A stretch of DNA of 64,000 nt from a virus, in the IMG/VR virus record IMGVR_UViG_3300020457_000007, positions 23,786 through 87,785 of that record, one strand, 5' to 3'. This document shows, one piece after another, positions 28,966 through 56,524 of this stretch (the first letter of the stretch is position 1; every line of letters starts with the position of its first letter). The notes beneath the pieces were generated by a model that saw only the letters and a program-made list of their open reading frames with translations, ran no database searches and was not told where the DNA came from. The translations under genes were made by a program, and so were the position numbers.

Positions 28966-28979
28966 TATTTATATTTATA
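28966..28979 (-). promoter_or_regulatory. Two overlapping late promoters before gp8
   Basis: Minus-strand TATAAATATAAATA contains two perfect TATAAATA boxes (28979-28972 and 28973-28966) sharing two bases. The stop codon of the giant gene (28977-28975) lies inside the first box. Two start sites 6 bp apart would be expected, ahead of gp8 and the 2,752-aa gene. Confidence 0.8.
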
Positions 28980-31900
28980 GATCTAAATCTGCGGTGATTA
29001 TATAGTCACCTGCGACATAGGAGTCAGTGTTGGCATCATTGAACCACATTAATCTGACACCATATTGATCTGATGTCATATTTGTCGAGTCAGCCATATA
29101 GATACGGATTATCGTCGTGGCGGTTTGTGCATTAGCTGGAATATTTTGTGTTATTGTATTCCAACTGGTGTAATTCGCTTGACTGTAGGTCACTACTGAC
29201 CCAATATCAATGAATGTAGTTCCACCATCAATACTGTAACTTAGCATCAAATCGTTAACTGCGGATCCTGGTGCATTACCACCATTACTCCCGTCACCAC
29301 GAATCGCACTAAATGTTACCGTATTGTATGTAGTCAAGTCAGTAGGAGCAAATGTTGCGGATCTAGCTCCACTTACACCTGAGAATAAGAGATAATTTAT
29401 GTTGGAATCAAAAACTGTTCCACCAGATACGACAGATGCACCTACGTTAGTAGTGTTAAAGTCATATGCACTGAATCCTTTTTCAACCACACCTAATGGG
29501 TTGACACGTGTACATCCAACAAAACGATCGGGGAATGCTTGTGTATACGTGATTTTTTCAACCTTAGATTGATCTGCTGCACTTCCGATTATGAAAGCAC
29601 CCCCTGAAGCAGGGAATCCAGCAGTAGAATCAACTAAGATAGTATCAGATCCGTTTGGATTATCCAAAGCGGAATATGTAAGTTTGGTACCGAAATGTAC
29701 CTCAGATCCTTGCATATACACAAAGTTATTTGTGTCACCAGGATCATTAACTTGAGAATTATAAACTTCGGGATTCTCGAAATCTTCAATCGTCAAGTTA
29801 GGATACTTCTCAGACCACCATCCTATATTCATATCTCCCATAATGTATTGTATTGTCCTACCCATACCATCAGTGTAGTAGCCATTGTTATTGGTTGTAC
29901 TCTGTGGTTGAATTTCAAACTTGAAGCTCTGTAGGTAATTCAAATGAGGACCAAGGTTACCAGGACTGAATGTCTCCTTAACACCCTTCATTTGAGGGTT
30001 GGTACCTGCTTGTTTCTCAATAGCACCTGACTGAGCAGTTAGTTTTGTCTCTGTAAACTTGTACTTAGTGACAGCAACTGAGACACCCTGAACACCACCT
30101 GAACATTGTGTATTGGTGACATTAGTCTTAAGATATTGAACTCTTGTTTGTTCAGGTTTAAGTTCAACCAATATTTGTGGTTGACCCTTAGTAGCTAGAT
30201 CTTGTAGATCAATAATCTTCCTGATATGAATTACAGGATCATATGTTCTGTTAAGAAGATATGCACTGCCACCAGCATTACCAAATACTAGAGTGACACC
30301 ATAAGGTACAACTGCTGCCCACTGTGCCCAAGTTGTCTGAGCACCACCCTTCTTGATAACAGAAAGATATGAATGTAATTTTGCAGCTGCATCAATACCA
30401 ACTGGTTCAATACCAAATGTAGTAAGATTCTTGATGTCAAGAGGGTTCTTACGGATAACGAAATAACCTCTAGTAAACAGAATCTGAGGAGGAACCTTAT
30501 AACCAGAACCACCAGAGATAATTTCTGTATCTGCTATTTCACCTCTAACAGCAATAGCATTAGCACGTGCACCACCGCCAGCAGGTGCTCCCACTGGATC
30601 ACCGTTTGAATCAACCTCAGGTTGACTACGGAAAATCATTACGGGTGGTTCACGATAGTTCTTAGATATCTGATCTTGTAGATCTCCAGAGTATATGGAA
30701 GAACTGAAATCATATTCTTGTGAGATGTTATTAGCACTAGCATTTTGTGGAACAAATCCACCTCCCATAAGATCCTTACCCTTATTCAATACGTTGTCCT
30801 GTCTCCAGTTAGCAACATTATCGAAGTAAGTAGAGTTGTCTCTCTTAGAAAGTACGATACTATTAACACCACCTGGTTTGAGGTATTGAAGACCAGTACA
30901 CTCTGTACCAGCTACGTTATTAATATAAACTTTTTCACCAGGACGGAAGTTGGCAGCTACTGGATCAGTATATCCAGAACCATCAAGGTATAGACTGTAT
31001 AATTCTAAAGTCTTTCTAGCTGGGATGTAGTTCTTAACTGTACCTTGCCATACTATGCCAGAGTTAATATCATTCTGATCATTGTACTGACATACGACAT
31101 CGTTAGGTAGGAATTCTACACCAGCTTGTCTACTAGATGTAAGTGAGTGATATCTCAACTCAGCATCAATACGTGCAACTGCCTGTGCACCGTCTCCTTC
31201 AATCTGACCAGAGTAAGCACCAACGTTGATAACAACTTCATACTCATAAGATCTAAAGAATGATCCAACGGTAGTATCACTGTCATAACCAGAGGTTACA
31301 AGTGCTTCTCTAGCAGCACGAATGATAGAACGTGAATCTGCCTCACCATCAATCTGAATAAAGTCACCAGTCTTAAGTGTAGAAGGTATTCTATCTTGTC
31401 TATTAAATAATTTCTCTCTTAAATCAGAGTTAGTAGATTCTTCAACTGCATTAACTGTAACATCAAGTAGAGATGCACTAGCTCCTCTGTCTCTAGTGAG
31501 ACTTAGAGTACCATTTAACCAGTTAACTTTCTGTCCTGTAACACCCTCAACGAATAGAAGGTTTCTAGCACCAGGTGCCCAGTTCTGCTTATAGATTCTA
31601 CCTCTTGCATATGAGTACTCATAGGTATGAGTTCCACCATTAGGATCAGTAGAGATCCAGCAATCTGCACCCTCTAGAGGAAGAACGATTTGCTGATCAA
31701 CAGTTAATCGGAAGAACTTCTTAAATGTACCTTCAGGTTCAATATTAAATCCTAAGAGAACACGCTCTGGATCCAAACCATAGAAGTATAAGATAAAGCA
31801 TTCGGATCCTTCTGAAGGAGCCTCTTGGAATACAATGATATTGTCTTCAATTCTGTATGCTATTCTGTTCTGCTGAATAACACCGTTAAGTATAACCACA

Positions 31901-34900
31901 ACGTTTTGACTTCTCTCTGCATAGAAAGGAACACCACCACGCTCCAATTCAAATATAGTCTGAGCATCATTGAACTGTGCTTCAATGGAGTCCATCTTAT
32001 AGTACTTACCGTGCTTGAATCCAAAGAATTTCTGTTGAACACCAGGAGAGATAATAGCAGTAGCACCAACATTAGCAATAGCTAGTGATGCTTCACTCTG
32101 TATATCTTCACCATTCAAGAATTCCTTCTTAGTCATCTCAACCTGTATACGGTTAGGATTAGGGAAGTCCTGAGTTATCGTCATTAGATAATTCTTCTGA
32201 TTAAACGCAGTCTCTTTAATTGTATTAAGAACAATACTGAATAGTGAGTTAATAGCAGATTCAACCTGTGCACACTGAGGCATTGAATCAACAGTGATTG
32301 TCAAATCTCTATTAGCAGTTAGAGAACTATAAACAATAGGCCATCTCTCTGGAATAGTTCTAGTTACACCAGATTCAAATGTAGTTGGGTTCTGTACAGC
32401 ATTCTCAATTAGACCCACAAATGTATCAACAGCAGATTCAACCTGTGCACATTCGTTAGACTCCTTGGTAATACTAGGATCTTTAATCTGTATTAAACCG
32501 TGTGTTCCAACTGCATTAACTGTGTTGTTACGTATAATGTTAGCAAGAATAGTCTTAAGATGTCCCATTACATTCAACACCTCAGGTACTGAGTGCTGAA
32601 TATGCTCTAGGTATCCATCTCTGTCGATGAATAGATCAGCAGCATCCCAAACCTTGTTGTTACCACCATACTTGAGGTTCCATACAATTGCTTCTAGAAT
32701 ATCCTTAACGTCATCAACACAATCACCAAGTGCATCGTGTGATGATGCTCTAGGATAGGTATGAGTTGTAGCGTGATCATCCATACCACAAGTTAATGTG
32801 ATAGTGTCAGGGAAGAACTTAATTCCTGTATGTCTACCTAATCTATGTGTACCAACGTCCATCATCATATCACCTGTTGCAGGATCATATGTAAGAATAG
32901 ATGGTTCGTAAGGTAATGGTTCAGATTTACCAACGTGTACTGTAATAGTAGTAGCATCTACAGATTTAACTGTAATAGATCTACCATATACAGGATCACC
33001 AACTCTAGGATATGAATGAGGAGTTTCATTCGCATCCATAGCACATCTCATTATAATGCTATTGGCCAGAATAGTAATAGTGTTGGATGTAGTAATAGAG
33101 TGACCACTACCAAGAGTAAGCACCATATCACCAGTGGATGCATCGTACGCAACATCTGTTGGCTTGAATTTCGCACCCGTGTTAACAGTAATAGCATCAT
33201 CTAATGCCCTATCGAAAGTATGAGTGTAACTACCACCTGTAATCAATGATGCCTTCTTAACACTATTAGGAAGAGCACTTTGGAATACGTGGTTAGTAGT
33301 ATTGCTTGATGGTACAGTTGTATTAACTGTTATTTCAAATTGATTTAAAGAAGTATTGCTTATCTGGAACCAACCATCAGATGCCCAGTCTTTCTTATGC
33401 TTAATCGCATTTGAGACTCCTGAGACAAAGGAATGATCAGTAACATTAGTAGAAGGAAGGATGTCTAATACTGTAACATCAAAAGCATTACCAGTAGCAT
33501 TAGAAATCTCTAGCCATCTGTTACTTGGATAGTCTGTATACCTAGGATAAGGATGCTGTGATGAATTAGTATCTTCAAGACAAGTAAATGTCAACGCACC
33601 ATCGTCAAACTTGATCCAATCACCATTGGATAAGTTGTGTGCAACAGTTGTACGTACTGATAGTACACCTGTACTAGGATCATAGGTAGTACCTGTATCA
33701 GCAGTAAACATATCCGTTATTGCTCTAGGATATGCGTGATCATCAGCCTGTCCATTTTCATCACAACGGAATGTGACAGCACCAATATCTAATTTAACCC
33801 AGTCGCCATTACTATATCCGTGATCTGCAATGGTAAGTACCATCTTACCATCATTAGGAGTATAGACAGCATTAGTAGGTGTCTTACCTACCTGTTGTAC
33901 AAACTGATGAGTGCTATCATTAGAAGACTTACCGATATTAGTTACGATAACACCGTCTTGCCTGATAATACCATTAGTGTAAGCAGAAACAAATGTATGA
34001 TCAGTTTCATTACTGGATGGTATAGTTGTTAAGCACTGTATCTCAAATGTATTAGGTGTAACATTTGATACCTCTATCCACTTATCACTAATTGGGTCAG
34101 TAGATCTTGGATATGCGTGATTAGTCTGGTTACCATCTTCATCACAAGTAAATGTGAGTGAATGATCCATCAACTTGATGTAATCACCATCTGTTAGACC
34201 GTGACCATATGTTGTAACACCACTAGAACCAGCACCTTGGAATGTATGAGGGAAGTTATGGCTAATAGTACCTTGACCACCATTTACATTAACTGTAATA
34301 GTTGTAGCATCCTTCTTAAGGACAGGTAACCAAGTGTCATAGGCATAATCAGCACCACTTGTAGTATTAGCACCTACTGCTCTAGGATATGTCTTAGTTT
34401 GTACAACTCCATTATATTCACAACTGAATGATAGTGAATCAGCAGTAAGTTTGATCTTATCGTAGCAAGTTAAACTGTGTGCACCGATAGTCAACTGCAT
34501 ATCACCAGATGCAGGACTATAAGCAGCATCAGTTACAGTAAATTGTTGTGTAGGTACTGTTATTTCTACTACTCCAGTCTCAGGGTTATATCCAGCATTA
34601 GTAGCAGTAAGAGGTGTACCTTCATACTTGATATAAGCAGCATCATCATAATATGGATCAGCAATTATGCCCACTCCAACCTTGATTGGTGTAGCAGAAC
34701 TAACGAATGTATGTGTATAATTACCTCCACTAACAACTGCTCCACCAGTAGCACTAATGAAGGTGTGAGGGTAGTTATGACTGATAGCACCTTGACCACC
34801 ATTAACGTTAATGGTAATTGTAGTTGCATCTGCTGATATAATGTCTAATGCAGTGTCGTATGCATAGTCTTCACCATTAGATGTGTTAGCACCAGAAGCA

Positions 34901-37900
34901 CGAGGGTATGTTCTCTGTGCTACACCACCATTATCACACTCAAACAGCAATGAATCGGTAGTTAACTTGATAGCGGTACCGACTGCTAGACTATGTGAAC
35001 CAATTGTCAATACCATCTCACCTGTAACAGGATCATATGTAGCATTTGATACATTATGATTGACTAGAGGTGTAGTACCAACATTAACAGTAATGGTATT
35101 AGAAGTAGTTGCTGTGATAGAAAGATTCTTACCACTAACAGGATCTGTTGCTCTTGGATATTGCTTAGGTGAACCATTACCATCCATTGCACAGTTGAAA
35201 GTCAAGGCCCCATCAGGGATCTGGACTAACTCACCTGTAGTGAATGAATGAGGTCCAATATTCATTTCTAATAGACCGTCAGCTGGTGTGTAAGTTGCAT
35301 CAGTTACACTACGCAAGTTACCAGTAGCCATTCTTGCTACTGATTCCTCAGCAACGAAAGTCTTATTATCTTTTATTAGTTTTGCAGCATCAATGAATGT
35401 ATTTGCTACAGGGTTGTCAATATTGTAAGGATCTGCATATACACCTATAGAATTAGCTAATGCACTCTTGAATGTATGAGCATAGTTACCACCAGAGATG
35501 ATAGAATCAGCAGCAGCAGTTACAAACTTATGAGTATATGCACCACCACTAATAACTGCACCAGGAAGTGCATCAACAAATGTATGAGGTGTAACGTTAG
35601 TAGAAGGTGCTACATTAAGGATATTAATAGTAATGGATGTATTAGTTACTGACTTAATATTGATTGCTGTATCATAGAATGGATCCACCTTCTGTTTGAT
35701 ACCATCAGCTGTAGCAGAAACAAATACGTGTGTATCAGTATTGGTAGAAGGAATTGCATCAAGAACAGTTACTACGAATGTATCAGTTGTAACATTTGAT
35801 ACCTTTAACCATCTATCGTTAGGATAATCTCCTGTTCTAGGATATGTTTTTGCTTGACCATTACTTCCAACACCAACATTAACTGTAATTGTTGTAGCAT
35901 CAACAGAATCAATAGCTATCGCTGTGTTGTATACAGGGTCAGTTGTACGTGGGTATGTGTGGACAGTTGCGTGACTGTCTGCATCACAAGTGAATGAAAG
36001 TGAATTAGCAGCAATAGTAATAGTGTCGCTAGTTGTTAGAGAATGATTTCCTATTGTAAGAATCATTACTCCTGTACCGAAGTTATAGTCTGCTCCAATA
36101 ACATTGAAGTTGCTTCCACCAGAGGAAACAGCATCGATAGCAGTACCACCAACGTAGGTATGAGTACCAGCACCATATGTGCAAGTTAATGTAAGTGAAT
36201 TATCTTCAAACTTAATCCAATCACCATCTGCCATATTATGTGCAGATGTTGTTGTAACAAGCATCTCACCATTTACAGGATTATATGAAGTTCCAGTAGT
36301 AGCAGTATGACTATAGGTATCTGGTCTAGGATATGACTTATTACCAGAACCGTGAGTACAACTAAAGATTAAAGAGCTGTCTCGTAACTTAATACTTGTA
36401 TTTGCTGCTAGTGTATGATTACCAATAGTCAACTCCATATCACCTGTAACAGGATCATAGGCAGCATCCGACACATCGTGAGTAACTAAAGGTGTTTGTC
36501 CAACCTGTAGTGTAATCTTACCTTTCTCAAGTTCAATACCATCAGTAAGAGCACTTACAAATGTATGAGTATCAAGGTTAGAAGAAGGAAGAGTGTCTAA
36601 GCACTGTATATCAAATGTATTTGTAGTTACATTAGAGATAGGAATAAACTTACCACTGATAGGATCAGAAGAACGTGGATATGCAGAACCAGGAGAACTT
36701 ACGCCAACATTAACTGTAATAGTACCACTACCTTGATCTACTGCTTTAATAGCAATTGGTAGATTGTATGCTGGATCTGTTGCTCTAGGATAAGAATGGT
36801 CAGTTGCAAAGTTGTCTTCGTCACATCTGAATACTAATGAACCACCAGCTATAGTAACTGTATCTACAATAGTAAGAGTATGAGTACCAATAGTTAATGA
36901 TAAGTCACCGTTAGATGGATTATAAGAAGCATTAGTAACATTAAATGATGCACCACCTGTGACAGTTACAGCATTGGTTGCAGTACCACCAACATAATTG
37001 TGAACTCCACCACCATAGGTACAACTAAAGGTTAAAGCACCGTCAGCAAGTTTAACATTGTCACCAGCTTCAAATCCGTGGTCTGTAACCTGAATTGTAA
37101 CAATACCTGTTGTAGGATTATAGCTAGCGGTCTCTGCTGTATGGAATGTGGATCCAGTACTTACAATATTAAATGCTTTGTCGTAGAAAGGATCAGTTGT
37201 TCTTGGATAAGTCTTAACTGAGTCTCTATGATCCATCTCACACTTGAATGAGAGGGAGTTAGGAGCAATCTTAACAGCAGTATTAGGAGAAAGATTATGA
37301 GAACCAATATCAAGTGTCATAAGACCCGTTGTTGGATCATATGAACCGTCTGTTGGTGTATGTGTGATATTAGATGTTGTACCTACGTTAACAGTGACTG
37401 TATCATCTGTTACTTGAGTAATATCAAGGGTTGATCTGTATGCAGGATCTCCTTGTCTTGGATATGTCTTATCGGATGTCTGTCCATCCATATCACAACT
37501 CCAAGTCATCGAGTTATCAGCAATCGCTATGAAGTCTGCTGTAGTAAGCTCGTGATTTGGTATTGTTAGTACTAGTGTACCACTAGTAGCAGAGTAAGTA
37601 GCATCTGTAGGTTGCAATCTGAAGTCAGATGCAGCTGCTCTCTGGAAATCATATAGATTGTCTATACCAAACTTATTACGTACTGCAAGGATAACCATAT
37701 CCTTCAAATACTTCATAGACCATAGAGTTGCCTCTACTTCACCTTCAATATGCTTAATACCACTATTAGGATCTGAAGGATCTAAAAGATACTCTTTAGC
37801 AGCATCAAATGTATTACTGTTACCACCTTGAATAAGGTCATCTGCCATTGCTCTCAAGACAGACTTAAGGTCAACAATACACTGATTTCTTCCTAGACCT

Positions 37901-40900
37901 GGATATTGGAAATACTCAGGTGCAAATTTACTTGTATTGTCTAATATGAATACTGCTTCCTCTGCTAGTACAGCAGCGTTGTTATCGATGATATTTGCAG
38001 CATCTAGGAATCTATTATCTGAGAAATACCTCTTAGCTACGATTTCACCTCTAGCACCAGAAGTTTGTCCAACAACATAGTCATTTACTAGCCAGTTGGT
38101 TGCATCACCAATTTCAAGTTCTACAATCTTACCAACCTGTCTAGGTGGTTCTGTAAAGGTTATTTTACCATTTCCAGGATTAGTTGTTAAAGTAAAGGCA
38201 ACATCGGGTTCCTGGATAACACCATCTAAAGAAACGTATAAATGGTCTCCATCTACAATAGGAATGCCTAAATCGAATTCTGTAGTAGTACCATCGAATA
38301 GAGAAGTGATATTGTTCGCTTCTCGCATATATTCGGCATTATTCGCATCATCTTGGAATTTCATCGACTTTCCGTAGAAAGTCACGCCTGGTACAAATAT
38401 ACCAGTACTAGGATCAGTATATGGTCCTAATGGTGCAGAAGCGAATGTAATGGTAGATCCAGCAACTGTATACGCAGTATCAGGATCCTGAAGAACACCG
38501 TCCAATGTAACGACTAATTGAGTTGCTCTGAACGGAACAAGCACCTCATTGATATCTTTCTTGAATAATGTAAATTGAGTCGTACCAGTGATTGTACCAT
38601 CTGCTTGAACAGCACCATCGAAGGCTGGTGAGATTGCTAGGTCAAATACTTCAATTTCAACGTTATTCTGTTCACTATAGTTAATAGTTCCTGTACCACG
38701 TTGTTTCGACATAGAATCGACTCTAACGTGAGATTGAGTGATTCTTCTCGACTTATGAGCACAAGTAACACCTAAAACGCCAGGTTCGATGATACTCATC
38801 ACCGCACCGTATCCATTGTCCTTTGTGCCACTTTGAGGAGTGTCTATGGTCTCTGGTTGTGTTCCATCACCTTGAGACTCAATTAAGACTTCTCCAAAGA
38901 GGTTAAATCCAGCTGGATGGGTAAAACGCTTAACAAAGTCTCTCCAGTCGTTAATAGAGACTGTAGACTTAACTACGTAAGAATAATCTTGATAATAGAC
39001 TCCATCTTGGACTTTCTGTGAAACAGCACTTAATTTACTTCTATCACTCGAATATGAACCAACTGAAGTACTTGTAGGTCCAATTTGCGGAGTTATGTTA
39101 GCTACGTAGATAACTTGGATACTTGCAGTAGCACGAAGTGTCTCACCGTAGATTTGATACCTAGAATCGAATTTTCCGTAGATACCCTTCAAACGAAGAA
39201 TATTCATTCCATCAACCCAGTAATCAACTCTACCAGAAGCAATCATATCTCCAGCTAAGTTTCTTTGCGTTATTAGCTCTCCATTCAAGAATGCCTTGTC
39301 GGGCATATCTCTTAGAGTCATAACAATGGGTGGATTGACTTGAGGTGCTAAAGTTGGGTCATTATTGAAGTCTTTACCCGAAGATATGATTTCTAGGGTT
39401 GCCAACTTACCAATATCAGTTCCTTGAGCAAATAACTTAGTATCTGACTCATAAAGTCGTAAAGTAGTCGTATCTGCGTAATTAACTCCTTCATCAATCG
39501 GAATAATACGAGAAACCGATCCGTCTGCCCTTAATTCGATTGTAAACTTAGCATTTGCTCCATCACCCCTATTTTCAAGCAATACAATGGGTTTAGAGTA
39601 ATTTAATCCAGTATCTGTAACTGTAACTGATGTAATACGTCCTTCAGTAAGATTAACAGTAAATGCACCTCTAAAACGCTTGTTTAAGAAGACACCAGGC
39701 ACTTGAGGTGGCATCGTATAGTTTTTACCACCACTGATGACTTTAACCCTCTTAATCGCTCCTACAGCGTATAGAGAGTCGGTATAATATTGAACATTCG
39801 TAAATCCTTCATTTTGAGGAGTCTGCTTTAACCTATAAGCAAATTCGTACTCATAGCCATAGAATACAGCGTGCTTACCTGCAAATGGGTCTTCTACAAG
39901 AGTAAAGAACTGATCTTCAGCATCTATCTTCGCAGATACCTCTCCATAGTAAATTTTGGTAGGAATGTCTAGTACAGGTGTACTCTTCCAAGTAGTACCG
40001 TCTACTGGTATACCATATCCAAGTTGGAACGTACTAAATGACCCAGTATTACCAGGTTTTACAGTTGACTGGTACGCTTGTACTAGTTCAGTAGTTCTAT
40101 AGACGTTTTCGTAGAATTTAAGATTTCTATTGACTAATGATGGATCAGAAGTATCAAAAAGATAACGATAAGTCTTTTGACACTCAATACTGATATTTCT
40201 ATTCCATTCTGTCTGTCCATCCTTCCTAAATCTAAATCTTAAGGAAGTAGGTTCGACACTTGCTATAGAAACCTGTTTATTAGGTGTACTACCATCTAAG
40301 AAGGTGGAATTAGTGTCAATTGTTGTGTCTCCTTCATTTAAGTAATAAACAATTAACTTATGAGTCTCAGAATCATATGAATCAATCCAAGCATTGTTTC
40401 CACTGAATGATACATTGGAATCCTTAGTGAATCTGTAAATATTTGTTATAAGTGTGACATCAACACCTTCAATATGATCTTCTGCTTCAGTTCCATTAAC
40501 ACCACGTATAACAGTTAGGAAATTACCTGTAACATTAGTGATCTGACACTCTTCATCAGTGATTCTAATAATATCATCTCTAGAGTAGCCAGAACCACTG
40601 GTTACTGTTATGATGGTATCAGTTTTGGCACAACCAGCAGCATCTACAAAGAATGTAGCCTCTTGACTATTGACATTACCACCTAGAAGACTAGATTGTA
40701 TAGTTACTATATTACCATACTCGTATCCATCTCCTTTAGTAATGATCTGAGCACTAACAACGTGTCCACCAGCATCAGTAGTAACAGTAAGGGTTCCAGC
40801 AGATCCTGTACCAGATTGATTGGTAACATTAAGTCCATTAAAGGTTGTACTAGGAGTAAATCCACTACCAGCATTGATAATGCTAACTCTAGCTATCCCA

Positions 40901-43900
40901 GATCCATTGATCTGACTGACTTTTGAAGGTTCGTTTAATTGTACAGTATGATACTTCTTAGTCTCAACATAATACTTCTGAGTAGAGATAGTAGAATCAG
41001 GTTGAACTGTAACAATGACATCATCACCGACTGCTAAACCGTGTCTGACGTTATCTGTCTTTAAAACTGCAATATTGTCTTCAACTTCTAGAAGTTTAAA
41101 TCCTTTAGATAGAGATCTAACGTTAACGATGGTTGCAGCACTAGTATTGACTTGACAACCATTACCAACTGCAAAGAATCCCAATTCAGCGTATGATGTG
41201 CTTGGTATAGTAACTGTATTACCATCATCGTCTACTGTAGTGAGTTTATTGGGGTTAGCAACCTGTAATTCGACAATAACAGTATTCTTGTCTACAACAT
41301 TACGTAAAACCTTACCAATAGCTACTTCGTGTGCTACACCACCAGATTGTTCAGTGAATACGACATTATCACCAACTGCTGCTAATACAGTGTTATCAAA
41401 GGTGATATTGTAAATCTCAGTTGTAGAATCAACTGTATCAGTAAGATTGAATGTACCTGTAACATTTTTTACAACAAACTGTGATGTCTCTTCAATTAGA
41501 CCAATTACGGTAGCTATAGCACCAGTATTGTTCTGAGTTAGTGAAGAATTGTGATTTAAGTAAACATTCCTGTCACAAGTGAAATAATTGTTCTTTGGAG
41601 TGTTACAAGACAAAGATGCAACTTGCTGACCTTGAATTTGGTCTACAGCAGCAAATAATCCATCTCCATTGTCATTAATGGAATTATCAACATATAGAAC
41701 GTCTTCATTCGTGAAATTGAAGGAAGACTGATGAACTTCGATATCTGTGATCGGTCCATACTCAATTCCGCTAACTCTAGACGTTAAGAGCTCTCCAGTG
41801 TCTGCTGTAGCGTTTACAGTTCTTCTACGGACTCCATCTGGCAAATATTTTTGTTTAGACTTAGTTTTCCAGTTTTCTTCAACAGGAACATTGTAAAATG
41901 CCTCTCCGATCGAATATGGGAACGTAGGAGACTCACTATCGTCTGTAGTTAAGAAATAAGCGTATACACCGTTTGGAAATTCGGGTGTAGTGCAAAAACG
42001 ACCATTATTAGCATCTAGTGTTCCTAATCTTTCGATAAACTCGAAATCATTAGTAAAACGACCTAATGAGTAAGTATTTGTGTCTGGAGCATTAGATCCT
42101 CTTGATGCTTTAAGTCTCCAGCTGGATTCCATCCTTTTAATAGTAGGATTCGCAGCAGTAACATCTTGATATGGATCTTCATAGCCAAAACTACCATATA
42201 TCGGATTTCCGTCATACGCCCAACCTAATATTGGAGAATGACTGTTATTAGAGAGTGGGTTACCCTGACCATCAACATTATCCTGTCTTAAAATCTTTAA
42301 AGAGGTAGGAGCAATGATATGACCATATGAATAACCATAATTAGGGTCATTTGCAATTTCTACGATACCACCAGCATTACCATTGTCAACAGACATCTCT
42401 AAGTACCTGTTATACTGCCATCTAGTCAAAACAGCAGTTGCTGAAGCAGTTCTAGACTTAGGTACTAGTGTAATAGTTGTAGAACCTTCCTCATAGTCAA
42501 ATCCACCAGATTGTTGAGTGAATCCAGTGATCTTACCTGTTACAGTGTCTATTTGGCAAGTATAGAACGCACCTTTACCTTTTCCACTCGCATCGTAGAT
42601 AAAAACATCAGGTGGTTCCGTGTAATCGGTTCCAGCGTCTATAACTTCAGCATTTTGGTTTACAGAGAGATAAATGTTCGCAATTTGACCTTGCTGAATC
42701 AAAACAGTAAATTCTCCACCAGTTCCAGAGGTAAATTCAACTGTAGGAGCAGTTGTGTATCCAGAACCTTGATTTGTGACGTTTACAGCTATGACTTCTC
42801 CAATTCCATTAATCTGTGCTTCTGCTGTGGCATTTCCTTCAACAATAACCTTTGGAGGTACGCTATAATTCCTTCCTCTGTCTGTAATCTCGATTTTTTC
42901 GAGTAAACCGAAATCTAGACCTCTTGATGACTTGTAATTGTATAATGGAACTCCATTAACCATTACACCAACCTCTTCTGAGGTTGTTAATTCTTTTGTG
43001 CTTGCATTTACTGGTTCTCTAGGAAGAATCTTTAAATGCTCTTGATCTTCAGGTACTTTTATGTTGTCAAATGGTCCTATAGCATAAGATGGGAATCCAG
43101 AAGACGCAATATAGTAATTATCAGTATCTCTATAGATTGCAGAGACATCTGAAAGAATTTTATCCTTAATATTGTTAGTTCCTACGTTACTAGGGTCAGA
43201 ACCTGATAACTTACTAAAGTTTTGATTGACAATCCACTCATTTGACAATGGAAGGTCATCTTGGAATCCAGATGCCTTAAATTCAACCATATTGTTGAAT
43301 GAGACATAAGGAATACCACCACTAGCTACATCAAAGTAGTTGTCTGCGGTTTCATCGTACTCTAGACCAGAACTTGCCTCTGGTTCGATACCTTCAGAGG
43401 TTAATCCTGATACAAGACCATAGATACGAAGTTCTATTTCATTACGGACTCCATTTTCAGTATAAAAACCTGAAAGGTTGTTTTTTGTAAATGCTCTTAC
43501 ACCTTTCTCGTGGTTATAGAGTTGTTTGTTGTCAGAATTGACTGCATCCCTCTCTTTGATGATAAATTGAGTCGCAGTCTTACTACTATATGTAATTTCT
43601 TCAGTACCAATGACTACACGACCATCTTTCTCTGGAAATCCAATAGTAGAGAACACATCGATGCGATCTCCAAGACCTGCATTGGTAGAAATGTCATTCA
43701 TTAAGAATGTACGACGTGCAATAGCAAATACACCCTCTTTACTACCAGGTGAGATAGTTAAAGTGTACTGTAGACTACCTTGATAAGGTTCACCGACTAT
43801 ATTGTCGATAATAGCAGTCGCAGCAGTCAGTTCGGGGTTATATGGATCAGGAGATTGAATAACCTCATTACCAACGATCTTTCTAATGTCTCCAGATATA

Positions 43901-44628
43901 ACTTCACATACTAATAGCTCTTTATTGTTCCATCCAGACTCAGATGCCTTATAAACATTCTCTTTTGGATAGATGATGTCAGGTTTGACACTAAACAGCA
44001 TCTGGAAGATGAACTCCAGTGACTGTGGTGTACCTTTGACGTTATAGAAGTCCTTTATCCTCTTAACTAAGAGGTTCTTGTTTGTTGTGTCTCTAAGATA
44101 AGGATATGGGAAACCGCTAGTATACTGTTCTTCGTAATTCTTGATTAAAGCAGCCAGTAGAAGGTTGCTTAGGTTGTTGACAACTGCAAACTGCTTATGA
44201 ACAGCAGCAACTGACTCTACAAAGTTGATTGGTTCGTATAAGTCACCAACTTTGGTCTTTGCACTATAGCCACGGACACAATTAGTGAATTGTGTGTCTG
44301 TTTTAGATTCATACAGGAAGATTTCCTGATCAATCATTATCATCCCGTTACTATCAGGGAATCCATCAGTCGAATCGACTGTAATATGAATATTATCAGT
44401 ACCTAGAGGTATTTCTATATCTAAACTTGCTGTCTTAACAAGAATCTCAGGTGAGAATGTATCTACATCAAGATATCTCTCGAAATTGTTAAGAATATCC
44501 TGTGGTCCTTCACTTATTGATAATGCTTCATAATATTTGGACAGGAAATTCGTAACGAGGGGATAATCCTCGACAACAAAATCAGGTAACTGACTTTCAA
44601 TCAGTGCTGCTAGACTTGGACCTGCCAT
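28975..44628 (-). CDS. Giant virion protein in the gp7 position, with tandem YPR repeats
   Basis: 5,217 aa, 15.65 kb, between gp6 and gp8 where T4 has gp7 (1,032 aa). The N-terminal 250 residues (ALIESQLPDFVVEDYPLVTN, FLSKYYEALSISEGP, KRIKDFYNVKGTPQSLEFIF) are the conserved part and are probably the wedge domain. Then come GxGY..P.V repeats, hinge modules (LFDGTTTEFDLG...VSLDGVIQEPD) and, at residues about 2,340-3,960, a tandem array with at least 15 YPR-containing units. After this are two CAQVESA... units, more beta domains and a possible C-terminal carbohydrate-binding-like beta-sandwich (last 110 residues). Likely a baseplate-anchored long appendage. Confidence 0.8.
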   Translation of the reverse strand: MAGPSLAALIESQLPDFVVEDYPLVTNFLSKYYEALSISEGPQDILNNFERYLDVDTFSPEILVKTASLDIEIPLGTDNIHITVDSTDGFPDSNGMIMIDQEIFLYESKTDTQFTNCVRGYSAKTKVGDLYEPINFVESVAAVHKQFAVVNNLSNLLLAALIKNYEEQYTSGFPYPYLRDTTNKNLLVKRIKDFYNVKGTPQSLEFIFQMLFSVKPDIIYPKENVYKASESGWNNKELLVCEVISGDIRKIVGNEVIQSPDPYNPELTAATAIIDNIVGEPYQGSLQYTLTISPGSKEGVFAIARRTFLMNDISTNAGLGDRIDVFSTIGFPEKDGRVVIGTEEITYSSKTATQFIIKERDAVNSDNKQLYNHEKGVRAFTKNNLSGFYTENGVRNEIELRIYGLVSGLTSEGIEPEASSGLEYDETADNYFDVASGGIPYVSFNNMVEFKASGFQDDLPLSNEWIVNQNFSKLSGSDPSNVGTNNIKDKILSDVSAIYRDTDNYYIASSGFPSYAIGPFDNIKVPEDQEHLKILPREPVNASTKELTTSEEVGVMVNGVPLYNYKSSRGLDFGLLEKIEITDRGRNYSVPPKVIVEGNATAEAQINGIGEVIAVNVTNQGSGYTTAPTVEFTSGTGGEFTVLIQQGQIANIYLSVNQNAEVIDAGTDYTEPPDVFIYDASGKGKGAFYTCQIDTVTGKITGFTQQSGGFDYEEGSTTITLVPKSRTASATAVLTRWQYNRYLEMSVDNGNAGGIVEIANDPNYGYSYGHIIAPTSLKILRQDNVDGQGNPLSNNSHSPILGWAYDGNPIYGSFGYEDPYQDVTAANPTIKRMESSWRLKASRGSNAPDTNTYSLGRFTNDFEFIERLGTLDANNGRFCTTPEFPNGVYAYFLTTDDSESPTFPYSIGEAFYNVPVEENWKTKSKQKYLPDGVRRRTVNATADTGELLTSRVSGIEYGPITDIEVHQSSFNFTNEDVLYVDNSINDNGDGLFAAVDQIQGQQVASLSCNTPKNNYFTCDRNVYLNHNSSLTQNNTGAIATVIGLIEETSQFVVKNVTGTFNLTDTVDSTTEIYNITFDNTVLAAVGDNVVFTEQSGGVAHEVAIGKVLRNVVDKNTVIVELQVANPNKLTTVDDDGNTVTIPSTSYAELGFFAVGNGCQVNTSAATIVNVRSLSKGFKLLEVEDNIAVLKTDNVRHGLAVGDDVIVTVQPDSTISTQKYYVETKKYHTVQLNEPSKVSQINGSGIARVSIINAGSGFTPSTTFNGLNVTNQSGTGSAGTLTVTTDAGGHVVSAQIITKGDGYEYGNIVTIQSSLLGGNVNSQEATFFVDAAGCAKTDTIITVTSGSGYSRDDIIRITDEECQITNVTGNFLTVIRGVNGTEAEDHIEGVDVTLITNIYRFTKDSNVSFSGNNAWIDSYDSETHKLIVYYLNEGDTTIDTNSTFLDGSTPNKQVSIASVEPTSLRFRFRKDGQTEWNRNISIECQKTYRYLFDTSDPSLVNRNLKFYENVYRTTELVQAYQSTVKPGNTGSFSTFQLGYGIPVDGTTWKSTPVLDIPTKIYYGEVSAKIDAEDQFFTLVEDPFAGKHAVFYGYEYEFAYRLKQTPQNEGFTNVQYYTDSLYAVGAIKRVKVISGGKNYTMPPQVPGVFLNKRFRGAFTVNLTEGRITSVTVTDTGLNYSKPIVLLENRGDGANAKFTIELRADGSVSRIIPIDEGVNYADTTTLRLYESDTKLFAQGTDIGKLATLEIISSGKDFNNDPTLAPQVNPPIVMTLRDMPDKAFLNGELITQRNLAGDMIASGRVDYWVDGMNILRLKGIYGKFDSRYQIYGETLRATASIQVIYVANITPQIGPTSTSVGSYSSDRSKLSAVSQKVQDGVYYQDYSYVVKSTVSINDWRDFVKRFTHPAGFNLFGEVLIESQGDGTQPETIDTPQSGTKDNGYGAVMSIIEPGVLGVTCAHKSRRITQSHVRVDSMSKQRGTGTINYSEQNNVEIEVFDLAISPAFDGAVQADGTITGTTQFTLFKKDINEVLVPFRATQLVVTLDGVLQDPDTAYTVAGSTITFASAPLGPYTDPSTGIFVPGVTFYGKSMKFQDDANNAEYMREANNITSLFDGTTTEFDLGIPIVDGDHLYVSLDGVIQEPDVAFTLTTNPGNGKITFTEPPRQVGKIVELEIGDATNWLVNDYVVGQTSGARGEIVAKRYFSDNRFLDAANIIDNNAAVLAEEAVFILDNTSKFAPEYFQYPGLGRNQCIVDLKSVLRAMADDLIQGGNSNTFDAAKEYLLDPSDPNSGIKHIEGEVEATLWSMKYLKDMVILAVRNKFGIDNLYDFQRAAASDFRLQPTDATYSATSGTLVLTIPNHELTTADFIAIADNSMTWSCDMDGQTSDKTYPRQGDPAYRSTLDITQVTDDTVTVNVGTTSNITHTPTDGSYDPTTGLMTLDIGSHNLSPNTAVKIAPNSLSFKCEMDHRDSVKTYPRTTDPFYDKAFNIVSTGSTFHTAETASYNPTTGIVTIQVTDHGFEAGDNVKLADGALTFSCTYGGGVHNYVGGTATNAVTVTGGASFNVTNASYNPSNGDLSLTIGTHTLTIVDTVTIAGGSLVFRCDEDNFATDHSYPRATDPAYNLPIAIKAVDQGSGTITVNVGVSSPGSAYPRSSDPISGKFIPISNVTTNTFDIQCLDTLPSSNLDTHTFVSALTDGIELEKGKITLQVGQTPLVTHDVSDAAYDPVTGDMELTIGNHTLAANTSIKLRDSSLIFSCTHGSGNKSYPRPDTYSHTATTGTSYNPVNGEMLVTTTSAHNMADGDWIKFEDNSLTLTCTYGAGTHTYVGGTAIDAVSSGGSNFNVIGADYNFGTGVMILTIGNHSLTTSDTITIAANSLSFTCDADSHATVHTYPRTTDPVYNTAIAIDSVDATTITVNVGVGSNGQAKTYPRTGDYPNDRWLKVSNVTTDTFVVTVLDAIPSTNTDTHVFVSATADGIKQKVDPFYDTAINIKSVTNTSITINILNVAPSTNVTPHTFVDALPGAVISGGAYTHKFVTAAADSIISGGNYAHTFKSALANSIGVYADPYNIDNPVANTFIDAAKLIKDNKTFVAEESVARMATGNLRSVTDATYTPADGLLEMNIGPHSFTTGELVQIPDGALTFNCAMDGNGSPKQYPRATDPVSGKNLSITATTSNTITVNVGTTPLVNHNVSNATYDPVTGEMVLTIGSHSLAVGTAIKLTTDSLLFECDNGGVAQRTYPRASGANTSNGEDYAYDTALDIISADATTITINVNGGQGAISHNYPHTFISATGGAVVSGGNYTHTFVSSATPIKVGVGIIADPYYDDAAYIKYEGTPLTATNAGYNPETGVVEITVPTQQFTVTDAAYSPASGDMQLTIGAHSLTCYDKIKLTADSLSFSCEYNGVVQTKTYPRAVGANTTSGADYAYDTWLPVLKKDATTITVNVNGGQGTISHNFPHTFQGAGSSGVTTYGHGLTDGDYIKLMDHSLTFTCDEDGNQTNHAYPRSTDPISDKWIEVSNVTPNTFEIQCLTTIPSSNETDHTFVSAYTNGIIRQDGVIVTNIGKSSNDSTHQFVQQVGKTPTNAVYTPNDGKMVLTIADHGYSNGDWVKLDIGAVTFRCDENGQADDHAYPRAITDMFTADTGTTYDPSTGVLSVRTTVAHNLSNGDWIKFDDGALTFTCLEDTNSSQHPYPRYTDYPSNRWLEISNATGNAFDVTVLDILPSTNVTDHSFVSGVSNAIKHKKDWASDGWFQISNTSLNQFEITVNTTVPSSNTTNHVFQSALPNSVKKASLITGGSYTHTFDRALDDAITVNTGAKFKPTDVAYDASTGDMVLTLGSGHSITTSNTITILANSIIMRCAMDANETPHSYPRVGDPVYGRSITVKSVDATTITVHVGKSEPLPYEPSILTYDPATGDMMMDVGTHRLGRHTGIKFFPDTITLTCGMDDHATTHTYPRASSHDALGDCVDDVKDILEAIVWNLKYGGNNKVWDAADLFIDRDGYLEHIQHSVPEVLNVMGHLKTILANIIRNNTVNAVGTHGLIQIKDPSITKESNECAQVESAVDTFVGLIENAVQNPTTFESGVTRTIPERWPIVYSSLTANRDLTITVDSMPQCAQVESAINSLFSIVLNTIKETAFNQKNYLMTITQDFPNPNRIQVEMTKKEFLNGEDIQSEASLAIANVGATAIISPGVQQKFFGFKHGKYYKMDSIEAQFNDAQTIFELERGGVPFYAERSQNVVVILNGVIQQNRIAYRIEDNIIVFQEAPSEGSECFILYFYGLDPERVLLGFNIEPEGTFKKFFRLTVDQQIVLPLEGADCWISTDPNGGTHTYEYSYARGRIYKQNWAPGARNLLFVEGVTGQKVNWLNGTLSLTRDRGASASLLDVTVNAVEESTNSDLREKLFNRQDRIPSTLKTGDFIQIDGEADSRSIIRAAREALVTSGYDSDTTVGSFFRSYEYEVVINVGAYSGQIEGDGAQAVARIDAELRYHSLTSSRQAGVEFLPNDVVCQYNDQNDINSGIVWQGTVKNYIPARKTLELYSLYLDGSGYTDPVAANFRPGEKVYINNVAGTECTGLQYLKPGGVNSIVLSKRDNSTYFDNVANWRQDNVLNKGKDLMGGGFVPQNASANNISQEYDFSSSIYSGDLQDQISKNYREPPVMIFRSQPEVDSNGDPVGAPAGGGARANAIAVRGEIADTEIISGGSGYKVPPQILFTRGYFVIRKNPLDIKNLTTFGIEPVGIDAAAKLHSYLSVIKKGGAQTTWAQWAAVVPYGVTLVFGNAGGSAYLLNRTYDPVIHIRKIIDLQDLATKGQPQILVELKPEQTRVQYLKTNVTNTQCSGGVQGVSVAVTKYKFTETKLTAQSGAIEKQAGTNPQMKGVKETFSPGNLGPHLNYLQSFKFEIQPQSTTNNNGYYTDGMGRTIQYIMGDMNIGWWSEKYPNLTIEDFENPEVYNSQVNDPGDTNNFVYMQGSEVHFGTKLTYSALDNPNGSDTILVDSTAGFPASGGAFIIGSAADQSKVEKITYTQAFPDRFVGCTRVNPLGVVEKGFSAYDFNTTNVGASVVSGGTVFDSNINYLLFSGVSGARSATFAPTDLTTYNTVTFSAIRGDGSNGGNAPGSAVNDLMLSYSIDGGTTFIDIGSVVTYSQANYTSWNTITQNIPANAQTATTIIRIYMADSTNMTSDQYGVRLMWFNDANTDSYVAGDYIITADLDL
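32750..37610 (-). repeat. Intragenic tandem repeat array encoding YPR domains
   Basis: Within the giant gene, about 4.9 kb encode units of the form YDPxTGxMxLTIGxHxL, then SLxFxCxxD, then TYPRxTDP, then VNVG. I count 15 YPR cores (for example KTYPRTTDP, HSYPRATDP, HAYPRSTDP). DNA copies have diverged, but near-identical stretches remain, such as around 34271-34312 and 34794-34835. Units are often incomplete or shuffled with HTFVSA-type linkers, suggesting repeated internal recombination. Confidence 0.8.
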
Positions 44629-54836: not shown

Positions 54837-54844
54837 TATTTAGG
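54837..54844 (-). promoter_or_regulatory. CTAAATA-type motif upstream of the 61-aa gene
   Basis: Minus-strand CCTAAATA overlapping the stop of the 105-aa gene and 24 bp upstream of the next ATG. It resembles the CTAAATA variant before virion genes, but the gene it would serve is not a virion gene. Low certainty. Confidence 0.3.
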
Positions 54845-55157
54845 CGAACTCTTGCCAGTTGCCTAAGTACTCAACATCTCCCTGGGGTGTGCTCACGAAC
54901 CAATCAAACTGCCTTTGGAATAAACCGTAGCCAAGCACATCACGTAAGATCTCATTTAAGATTTGCTTAGTGGTGTTGGTCCAGTACCCACAGTTGTTGA
55001 TTGAAACGTTGGACCTGCCACTTGCAATTGTTGCGATGTGGTGCCCGTGGAATCTTACCTCTACTCCGTCGTCAGTGTGTGTTACTGATCTGTTACCCTT
55101 GGCAAATGATGTGCCGTACTGGATTGCAGATAGGAGTTGAGCATCAATCTTTCTCAT
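54840..55157 (-). CDS. Hypothetical phage protein (105 aa)
   Basis: MRKIDAQLLSAIQYGTSFAK, VRFHGHHIATIASGRSNVSI, NNCGYWTNTTKQILNEILRD. This FHGxxIA...NCGYxTxTTKxxLN pattern occurs in many phage proteins of unknown role, as I recall. It overlaps the KTSC-like gene by 14 bp. Function unknown. Confidence 0.78.
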   Translation of the reverse strand: MRKIDAQLLSAIQYGTSFAKGNRSVTHTDDGVEVRFHGHHIATIASGRSNVSINNCGYWTNTTKQILNEILRDVLGYGLFQRQFDWFVSTPQGDVEYLGNWQEFA

Positions 55158-55689
55158 ATGGAATTGGTAGGTCTGGTGGTGTTGACTCTTCTATTATAGT
55201 CCCTCCAGCATCGATGTCGAACGTGTTTGTGCCACTTTGTGAACTGGTTTCCACTGGCTGTGAAAAATTGATATCATCCTCACCCAGGACCACGGCACCT
55301 TCGGGCATTGTGCTACCTTGGAAAGCGTCCCAACCCCTATTGAGCATATGCTCGTTTTGCTCTAGTCTAGATTCAACCTTCAGATTACCAGACTGGATAC
55401 GTTCGTTAATAAACTTACCAATAGATGCATCTTCCCTCTCTATAGTGGTACTTACATCTTCTACCAGCTCCTCCTCTTCATTTCTGTCTTGCTCAGCCTC
55501 TAATCTACCACTGAGTTCCATAAATGATGATTGAAATTCCTCTAAATCTTCACATTTGTAAGAATATTGGACATTTAGGTTAGATTTGTATGTAATTTTA
55601 ACATAATTATGGTCAAAATCTAACTCCAAATACTCAATTGCAGAGGATGGAACTTCTGAGTAACCTACTAAACTGGTTAATTCGGGCAT
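55144..55689 (-). CDS. KTSC-like domain protein with acidic tail
   Basis: 181 aa. Residues 14-60 (SSAIEYLELDFDHNYVKITY, then YSYKCEDLEEFQSSFM) resemble the KTSC fold (SSxIxxIxYD...LxIxFxxGxxYxYxxV), named for a lysyl-tRNA synthetase extension and common in phages. An acidic coiled coil and a disordered Ser/Pro-rich tail follow. A strong promoter (TTGACT-17-TATAAT) lies upstream. Role unknown. Confidence 0.72.
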   Translation of the reverse strand: MPELTSLVGYSEVPSSAIEYLELDFDHNYVKITYKSNLNVQYSYKCEDLEEFQSSFMELSGRLEAEQDRNEEEELVEDVSTTIEREDASIGKFINERIQSGNLKVESRLEQNEHMLNRGWDAFQGSTMPEGAVVLGEDDINFSQPVETSSQSGTNTFDIDAGGTIIEESTPPDLPIPYEKD

Positions 55690-55709: not shown

Positions 55710-55738
55710 ATTATAACTTATTATTCTTAAAAAGTCAA
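55710..55738 (-). promoter_or_regulatory. Strong early-type promoter TTGACT-17-TATAAT
   Basis: Minus strand: TTGACT (55738-55733), 17 bp, TATAAT (55715-55710), about 20 bp before the ATG of the KTSC-like gene. One mismatch to consensus in total. Confidence 0.82.
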
Positions 55739-55909
55739 CTTTTTAACTTTTTGAGTTTCGTAATTTCCGAATTATTACACTTTTTGAAGTTTCTGAGGTT
55801 TTTGGTTGACAAATGCTAGACTGCGGGCTAAGACCCCCAAATCCCTCAACCTTAACCAAGGTATAGAACACCCTACTATGGTTTATTTAACATTTATTAA
55901 ATCACGTAG

Positions 55910-55953
55910 TTTTCCACAGTTTATCCACAAGTTTTCCACAACCCTGTGGAAAA
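55910..55953. other. Cluster of four DnaA boxes (candidate replication origin)
   Basis: Plus strand: TTTTCCACA (55910-55918), TTATCCACA (55921-55929) and TTTTCCACA (55932-55940); minus strand: TTTTCCACA (55945-55953). TTATCCACA is the E. coli consensus, and TTTTCCACA is the form I recall for cyanobacteria. Spacing between the first three is 11 bp start to start, about one helical turn; the last pair forms a 9-bp inverted repeat with a 4-bp centre. An AT-rich region lies beside it. Confidence 0.75.
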
Positions 55954-55975: not shown

Positions 55976-56146
55976 CTACGTGCGGATGCCCTTCCTATCT
56001 TCTACCAATTTGGTCTGTCTCTCTACCTCATACCTGATTGAAGCAAGATGTCCCTCTAAGTACTGTTGGTACTCATTACCCTCGAACAAATCACCTAGGT
56101 GAAGTATATGTTCCATTGCAAAGTACAGTTTAGTTTGTTCATTCAT
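55976..56146 (-). CDS. Hypothetical helical protein (56 aa)
   Basis: Start chosen at the third of three consecutive ATGs (56146), which has AGAAGG 6 bp upstream. A TTG 27 bp earlier would extend it inside the previous gene. MNEQTKLYFAMEHILHLGDL, then FEGNEYQQYLEGHLASIRYE: an amphipathic helical protein. It overlaps the 41-aa membrane gene by 8 bp. Function unknown. Confidence 0.68.
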   Translation of the reverse strand: MNEQTKLYFAMEHILHLGDLFEGNEYQQYLEGHLASIRYEVERQTKLVEDRKGIRT

Positions 56147-56264
56147 CATCATCCTTCTCTTTAAATGATACAATGTTTTTGGTTGGTAGTATACCTAGCA
56201 GTGTCCATAACCACAACAATGCTAGGATGAGTGTTACTAATTCAAATACTGGTATGGGTAACAT
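56139..56264 (-). CDS. Single-helix membrane microprotein (41 aa)
   Basis: MLPIPVFELVTLILALLWLW, then TLLGILPTKNIVSFKEKDDDE. The N-terminal half is a strong transmembrane helix and the end is charged. TGATG overlap with the 86-aa gene. It may be a membrane anchor or a small regulator of a membrane complex; nothing more can be said. Confidence 0.72.
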   Translation of the reverse strand: MLPIPVFELVTLILALLWLWTLLGILPTKNIVSFKEKDDDE

Positions 56265-56524
56265 CAGTCTAGTGATCCAAGATCATTTAACTGTTGGGGT
56301 TTTGGTTTATGGTTCTTAAATCCATCGTGGTTACCATCACCAGGCATTTTACCAAAGGCAAGATACTCAACTGCTTGTATACTCCCTTCAAGGCGATCAA
56401 GTTCTCTGTCTAGTTTCACATACTCAAGATGTGCATCTTCCAGTTCAACTTGTCTCATTTCCAGTTGTGTCACTCTCTTCGTGAAACGTTGTAGCAACTG
56501 TTCGTATGATTCAGTTTCTTTCAT
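56264..56524 (-). CDS. Coiled-coil protein (86 aa)
   Basis: Residues 1-55 are a continuous helix with heptads (YEQLLQRFTKRVTQLEMRQV, ELEDAHLEYVKLDRELDRLE), then a Gly/Pro-rich tail. Coupled to the downstream membrane microprotein. Unknown partner. Confidence 0.72.
   Translation of the reverse strand: MKETESYEQLLQRFTKRVTQLEMRQVELEDAHLEYVKLDRELDRLEGSIQAVEYLAFGKMPGDGNHDGFKNHKPKPQQLNDLGSLD

Follow-up and report, generated by a model that had tools for sequence, protein, structure and literature searches.

A conserved module of host-type DnaA boxes in T4-like cyanophages is a candidate early replication origin

A cluster of DnaA boxes in a T4-like cyanophage

The window analysed here is a 64-kb stretch of an 87,785-bp virus record. 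Its gp6 shares 49-51% identity with the gp6 proteins of S-PM2, Syn1 and S-RIM32, and the window was therefore assigned to a T4-like cyanophage (Kyanoviridae-type). Between two small open reading frames on the minus strand lie four exact matches to TTWTCCACA, three of them direct and the fourth inverted (Table 1). A sequence-only reading had reported four DnaA boxes at this place, in intergenic DNA, at an 11-bp phase and beside an AT-rich stretch, and each of these points held: coordinates and strands are all exact, the boxes are intergenic in the window, the plus-strand boxes have start-to-start spacings of 11 and 11 bp followed by 13 bp to the inverted box, and positions 55883-55902 rank in the lowest 0.05% of the window's 20-mers for stability. 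No other exact TTWTCCACA site occurs in the 64 kb, and shuffled versions of the window carried a mean of 1.64 such sites; by a Poisson estimate, the chance of four boxes within 44 bp is about 2e-10. To the left of the cluster, no protein homologues of the 181-aa ORF were found in sequenced phages; beyond it lies a gp96 family gene, which served as a positional marker for the locus.

Table 1. Features of the box locus, and dense box arrays in other viral contigs
Feature	Coordinates	Strand	Remark
Kyanoviridae gp96 family gene (PF23790 / phrog_554 / T4-GC 637)	54840..55157	-	conserved neighbour, positional marker
181-aa ORF, left neighbour	55144..55689	-	weak phrog_4357 match
Divergent sigma70 promoter, TTGACT-17-TATAAT	55738 to 55710	-	11/12 matches; outside the conserved module
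Conserved module	55806-55953		candidate early replication origin
Promoter-like element	55806..55834	+	kept upstream of the box cluster in relatives
-35, TTGACA	55806-55811	+	followed by a 17-bp spacer ending GGC
-10, TAAGAC	55829-55834	+	
AT-rich, easily melted block	55873..55905		candidate DNA unwinding element; core ATTTAA-CATTTA-TTAAAT
DnaA box 1, TTTTCCACA	55910..55918	+	exact match
DnaA box 2, TTATCCACA	55921..55929	+	exact match
DnaA box 3, TTTTCCACA	55932..55940	+	exact match
DnaA box 4, TTTTCCACA, inverted	55945..55953	-	exact match; also in 7/7 fetched IMG/VR relatives
65-aa ORF, right neighbour	55976..56173	-	strand opposite to promoter-like element
Dense TTWTCCACA arrays, other viral contigs	L014 4559-4744; L029 4841-5026, 9812-9964; L016 8217-8341; L017 13507-13618		

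The boxes match the DnaA box of cyanobacteria

The DnaA box of Synechococcus elongatus, Anabaena and Cyanothece has been given as TTTTCCACA (PMC4674748), and the phage 9-mer agrees with it in 9/9 letters; the cluster thus contains the three or more host-type boxes looked for in a bacterial oriC. Variants found within the arrays, TTATCCACA in the window and S-BM3 and TTATCAACA in S-SM2, are substitutions that DnaA tolerates, and TTATCAACA is itself also cited as a Cyanothece box (PMC4674748).

Synechococcus WH7803 is the listed host in the records of Syn30, S-BM3 and S-PM2; its DnaA aligns to solved DnaA proteins, among them the box-binding domain of E. coli (1j1v), and keeps the DNA-binding signature GGKDHTTV. 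No DnaA DNA-binding domain was found among the phage proteins of 23 phage records (0/23), so that the ligand of the boxes would be the DnaA of the host. Upstream of dnaN, WH7803 carries one-mismatch boxes only (TTTTCCACG, TTTTCCCCA), and an exact box was found there neither in RCC307 nor in WH7803; because the dnaN-proximal boxes of the host carry a mismatch, taking TTTTCCACA as the box of marine Synechococcus (WH7803) is an extrapolation. The one-mismatch boxes of WH7803 and RCC307 adjoin a TAG-containing AT-rich stretch (TTTAGTAG / TTTTATTAG), whereas the phage boxes are exact.

The cluster is kept at one locus across the family

The sequence-only reading had named loss of the boxes from close relatives as a refutation; they are instead kept at the same locus across the family. 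A scan with the three direct boxes matched 27 IMG/VR stretches, 7 of them cyanophage relatives of the window, and all 7, although fetched by the direct boxes alone, carry the inverted fourth box. By blastn, variants of the cluster were found in S-BM3, S-PM2, Syn1, S-RIM44, S-CAM3, S-RIM32, S-CREM1, DSL-LC03 and S-RIM50; since this set was chosen by the cluster itself, genomes picked through gp6 or other proteins were added. Among all 9-mers, TTTTCCACA ranked first for local clustering, being clustered in 14 of 17 genomes, and it ranked joint first, with 6 of 8, among the genomes not chosen for the cluster. Genome-wide scans found few exact boxes per genome, concentrated at one locus; in S-RIM32 all five copies of TTTTCCACA fall inside 1.1 kb of 194 kb. 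Exact boxes lie less than 4 kb from the gp96-family gene in every genome having that gene (16/16), with about 51 boxes observed near it against about 4 expected.

The least biased test used 72 non-redundant IMG/VR loci selected solely by the gp96 protein. A pair of TTTTCCACA within 60 bp was present in 19 of the 72, and the 9-mer occurred 88 times in total, whereas the maxima over 300 anagrams were 1 and 23, respectively; prevalence is understated by these figures because many of the contigs end early. A DnaA-box cluster had been expected to be unusual for T4-like phages, and this is true of T4 itself, which has five scattered boxes and no cluster, but among T4-like cyanophages it is common. 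Second clusters were also seen: DSL-LC03 carries a further array at 80507-80579, with four of its five boxes inverted and the other direct, about 0.4 kb from its main cluster, and S-RIM32, S-CREM1 and P-SSM7 have second clusters nearby.

The boxes follow a promoter-like element and an AT-rich block

Upstream of the boxes, and missed in the sequence-only reading, is a promoter-like element that in the window points into the boxes and away from gp25/gp6. All examined genomes with a box cluster have such an element on its upstream side, the weakest being that of DSL-LC03. In 13 of 17 genomes the pattern TTGACW-N15-GCTWAG has a single occurrence, at the module locus, and in 11 of these it lies directly upstream of boxes. 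Its -10 hexamer varies among relatives (TAAGAC, TAGAAT, TAGACT, TAGAAC) and is mostly preceded by TGC, as in an extended -10, where the spacer of the window ends in GGC; TAAGAC is a poor sigma70 match, and a simple promoter scanner made no call there. Neither a credible Rfam family nor a conserved RNA structure was found in the leader (RNAalifold energy 0.0, 40 sequences).

The AT-rich block of the window is less stable than 99.9% of the window over 30 bp and than 99.95% over 20 bp. Across 61 non-redundant homologous elements, AT content is highest, at 0.80, over the 20 bp that precede the first box. In most genomes one flank of the boxes is an outlier of low stability, a weak one in P-SSM7; in most members this flank is 5' of the direct boxes, and in S-BM3 and S-SM2 it is 3' of them. 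The common order of the module is TTGACA or TTGACT, 17 bp, the -10, 40-70 bp, the AT-rich block and then 2-4 boxes at an 11-12 bp phase, the last one usually inverted. A composite pattern of promoter, 40-70 bp and box matched at least 120 stretches in IMG/VR, and its counterpart with a reversed box matched 3; a second box was present in 60 of 61 non-redundant composite elements, though the pattern requires just one. Invariance of the boxes in the set picked by regular expression is partly selection, the expression having required boxes, and was not counted as evidence.

These controls bear on the rival reading that the boxes reflect chance or coding constraint. In S-RIM2, ACG-2014b and P-SSM7 a small annotated ORF does overlap them with its 3' end, as coding constraint would have it, but they are intergenic in the window, S-BM3, S-RIM44, S-CAM3, S-RIM32, Syn30 and others, no long open frame is shared across the arrays, and the anagram and reversed-box counts are far below those observed; this explanation is excluded at the sequence level. 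Alternatively, a different DNA-binding protein, of host or phage, could recognise the 9-mer, which would then resemble the DnaA box by coincidence. The commonest layout, an inverted pair at 23 bp (37/61 elements) as in the dyad TTTTCCACA-N14-TGTGGAAAA, which in the S-RIM2/Syn30/P-SSM7 group has a degenerate third box inside, would suit a dimer, and the want of exact boxes in the dnaN region of WH7803 would fit as well. Against this stand the full-length match to the published cyanobacterial box, the DnaA-tolerated substitutions within the arrays, and the direct arrays at 11-12 bp, which are not a dimer layout, and we regard another ligand as very improbable.

The module is not complete in every relative. 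No counterpart was seen in the examined parts of ACG-2014f and S-H34, and in ACG-2014j, P-RSM4, P-SSM4 and Sf-CH1b the promoter-like element is followed by an AT-rich stretch and by no exact box array. Since these last relatives keep the element without the array, the boxes are not essential to every member, and perhaps they optionally enhance an older origin composed of promoter and AT-rich stretch.

Position and direction of the module

In box-carrying genomes, gp6 is 3-10 kb away from the module, which in S-PM2 is found at 19.2-19.4 kb and in Syn30 at 13.0-13.1 kb. Relative to gp6 the promoter-like element runs on the other strand in 13/13 genomes, as it does relative to gp96 in 14/14 loci, and, because the neighbouring genes in the annotated genomes run the other way, nearly all of these have no co-directional gene behind it, S-BM3 being the exception. 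With no gene to transcribe, the proposed product of the rightward promoter is a short non-coding RNA. The S-PM2 record annotates tRNA genes at 18.7-19.3 kb that overlap the box cluster and several CDS; ARAGORN found no tRNA there, and the annotated coordinates look wrong.

A transcription switch would make use of the same layout: DnaA on the boxes would block or time the rightward non-coding RNA, or read-through of the leftward genes, without starting replication. DnaA regulates promoters in many bacteria, the promoter-like element stands 70-105 bp upstream of the boxes, and a divergent early promoter lies close by. This last promoter, at 55710, is the one that the sequence-only reading had suggested as the target; it is indeed present, but it serves the leftward 181-aa gene on the minus strand and is not part of the conserved module. 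Given that the boxes are well downstream of the promoter-like element and do not overlap it, that almost no annotated genome has a co-directional gene behind it, and that the leader lacks a conserved RNA structure, we consider such a switch unlikely.

Comparison with known replication origins

Minimal origins of phage T4 span about 100 bp and consist of a promoter and an A+T-rich unwinding element; the origin transcript persists as an R-loop and primes synthesis, and oriE combines an early promoter with evenly spaced direct repeats (PMC3016281). The T4 record places oriE 1.7 kb from gene 6, directed away from that gene, with a primer RNA complementary to the gene 5 transcript. The cyanophage module resembles oriE in its place near baseplate gene 6, in an early-type promoter-like element joined to a cluster of evenly spaced direct repeats, and in an orientation by which its putative RNA would be antisense to late baseplate genes and directed away from gene 6. 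It differs in its distance to gp6, 3-10 kb, and in that oriE is located within gene 5 and functions together with RepEA/RepEB; the iterons of the two are not the same. The repeats near the oriE mark were considered as DnaA boxes and rejected: they are gp5 coding repeats, and no boxes are found there.

With oriF and oriG of T4 the module shares an A+T-rich stretch, here a candidate unwinding element, downstream of its promoter or promoter-like element. These last differ, being a MotA middle promoter in T4 and in the cyanophages a conserved sigma70-like element (TTGACA-N17-TAAGAC/TAGAAT with an extended -10) whose -10 is weak; in addition, the T4 origins have no DnaA boxes, and an R-loop at the cyanophage module is a prediction. 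Because the layout matches that of the T4 origins, the module may be read as an early origin of the R-loop type with acquired host DnaA sites. The case that it works like a T4 origin is stronger than any case for shared descent with one.

Cyanobacterial oriC, beside dnaN, likewise has phased DnaA boxes of the same sequence next to an AT-rich block, and an AT-rich candidate unwinding element adjoins the boxes in the phage module. The module, however, has no dnaA or dnaN neighbour, is embedded downstream of a promoter-like element, and lacks the DnaA-trio; by eye, no trio repeat but a single TAG was seen beside a box in the alignment. Its AT-rich block is mostly 5' of the boxes, whereas the unwinding element of E. 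coli faces the 3' side of box R1. GC skew, which had been proposed as a check on the origin, showed no switch or signal at the module in 16 complete genomes, nor did TA skew; both track gene direction throughout, and since GC skew follows transcription it is uninformative on the origin. The P1 oriR, R6K and pSC101 origins also join DnaA boxes to an AT-rich region and spaced repeats, but there an initiator of the plasmid or phage itself binds iterons. No initiator iterons were seen in the phage module, whose repeats are the DnaA boxes themselves.

As described, the datA locus of E. coli and other DnaA titration sites are also clusters of DnaA boxes in non-coding DNA, and a datA-like decoy would absorb host DnaA as phage copies rise, shutting off host initiation. 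Because the phage boxes are exact and the dnaN-proximal boxes of the host have one mismatch, phage copies could outcompete the host origin. A decoy, however, needs neither a promoter nor an AT-rich block and would profit from many scattered sites, whereas the phage boxes are few per genome, share for the most part a single locus, and follow both elements in a set order. We therefore think it quite improbable that the cluster exists as a decoy, although titration is possible as a side effect.

A proposed early origin that recruits host DnaA

Taken from its sequence and layout, the module at 55806-55953 is probably (at roughly 0.6) an early replication origin of the R-loop type of a T4-like cyanophage, one which recruits host DnaA. 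The sequence-only reading had listed an origin, a switch and a decoy side by side; of these the origin is favoured, and the other two are less likely, because the boxes are joined to a promoter-like element and an AT-rich block in one copy per genome, with a fixed orientation. In an infected cell, host RNA polymerase would start at the rightward promoter, and the RNA, on crossing the AT-rich block, could stay hybridised as an R-loop, from whose 3' end the phage polymerase could synthesise the leading strand, as happens at T4 oriF and oriG. The boxes just downstream are in helical phase; host DnaA would bind them cooperatively and might keep the duplex open, stall RNA polymerase in the melted block and/or help to load helicase on the displaced strand. 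The broader proposal, that T4-like cyanophages start early replication from one hybrid origin at which an antisense RNA opens the AT-rich element and host DnaA on 2-4 phased boxes assembles the phage replisome, is more tentative, and we hold it at somewhat below even odds. A role for DnaA as substitute for a missing gp59 helicase loader was rejected, as the presence of gp59 does not track the boxes: gp59-like proteins were undetected in the S-PM2/Syn1 group and P-SSM7, and present in other box-carrying phages.

T4-like cyanophages are some of the most abundant viruses in the sea. For the laboratory phages S-PM2, Syn30 and S-RIM2, the conserved 150-bp module with its host DnaA boxes is a precise origin candidate, and it suggests a possible dependence of early phage replication on host DnaA. 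If so, phage replication would hinge on a host protein that varies in level with the cell cycle, and infection could thereby be coupled to the daily cell cycle of the host. Use of DnaA by T4 itself is not known. A search of open-licence PubMed Central papers found nothing relevant on DnaA boxes in cyanophages or lytic phages, which is no proof of novelty, and in the open literature no described replication origin of T4-like cyanophages was found.

Other features of the window and of related contigs

Adjoining the gp6 gene of the window is a single 5217-aa ORF with internal repeats (28975-44628, minus strand). The ORF at 56264-56524 (minus strand; phrog_10366 / T4-GC 415) has 67-77% DNA identity to many cyanophages, where it occupies another genome position, in several beside a recombination gene. 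An N6/N4 DNA methylase gene (PF01555; 62761-63705, minus strand) encodes a protein 73-74% identical to those of P-SSM7 and P-RSM4; gp6 and other structural genes reach 33-51%, and so large a gap makes a recent exchange of the methylase probable. Dense arrays of 6-11 TTWTCCACA boxes also occur in other viral contigs, not recognised as cyanophages (Table 1), and possibly represent DnaA-dependent origins or decoys.
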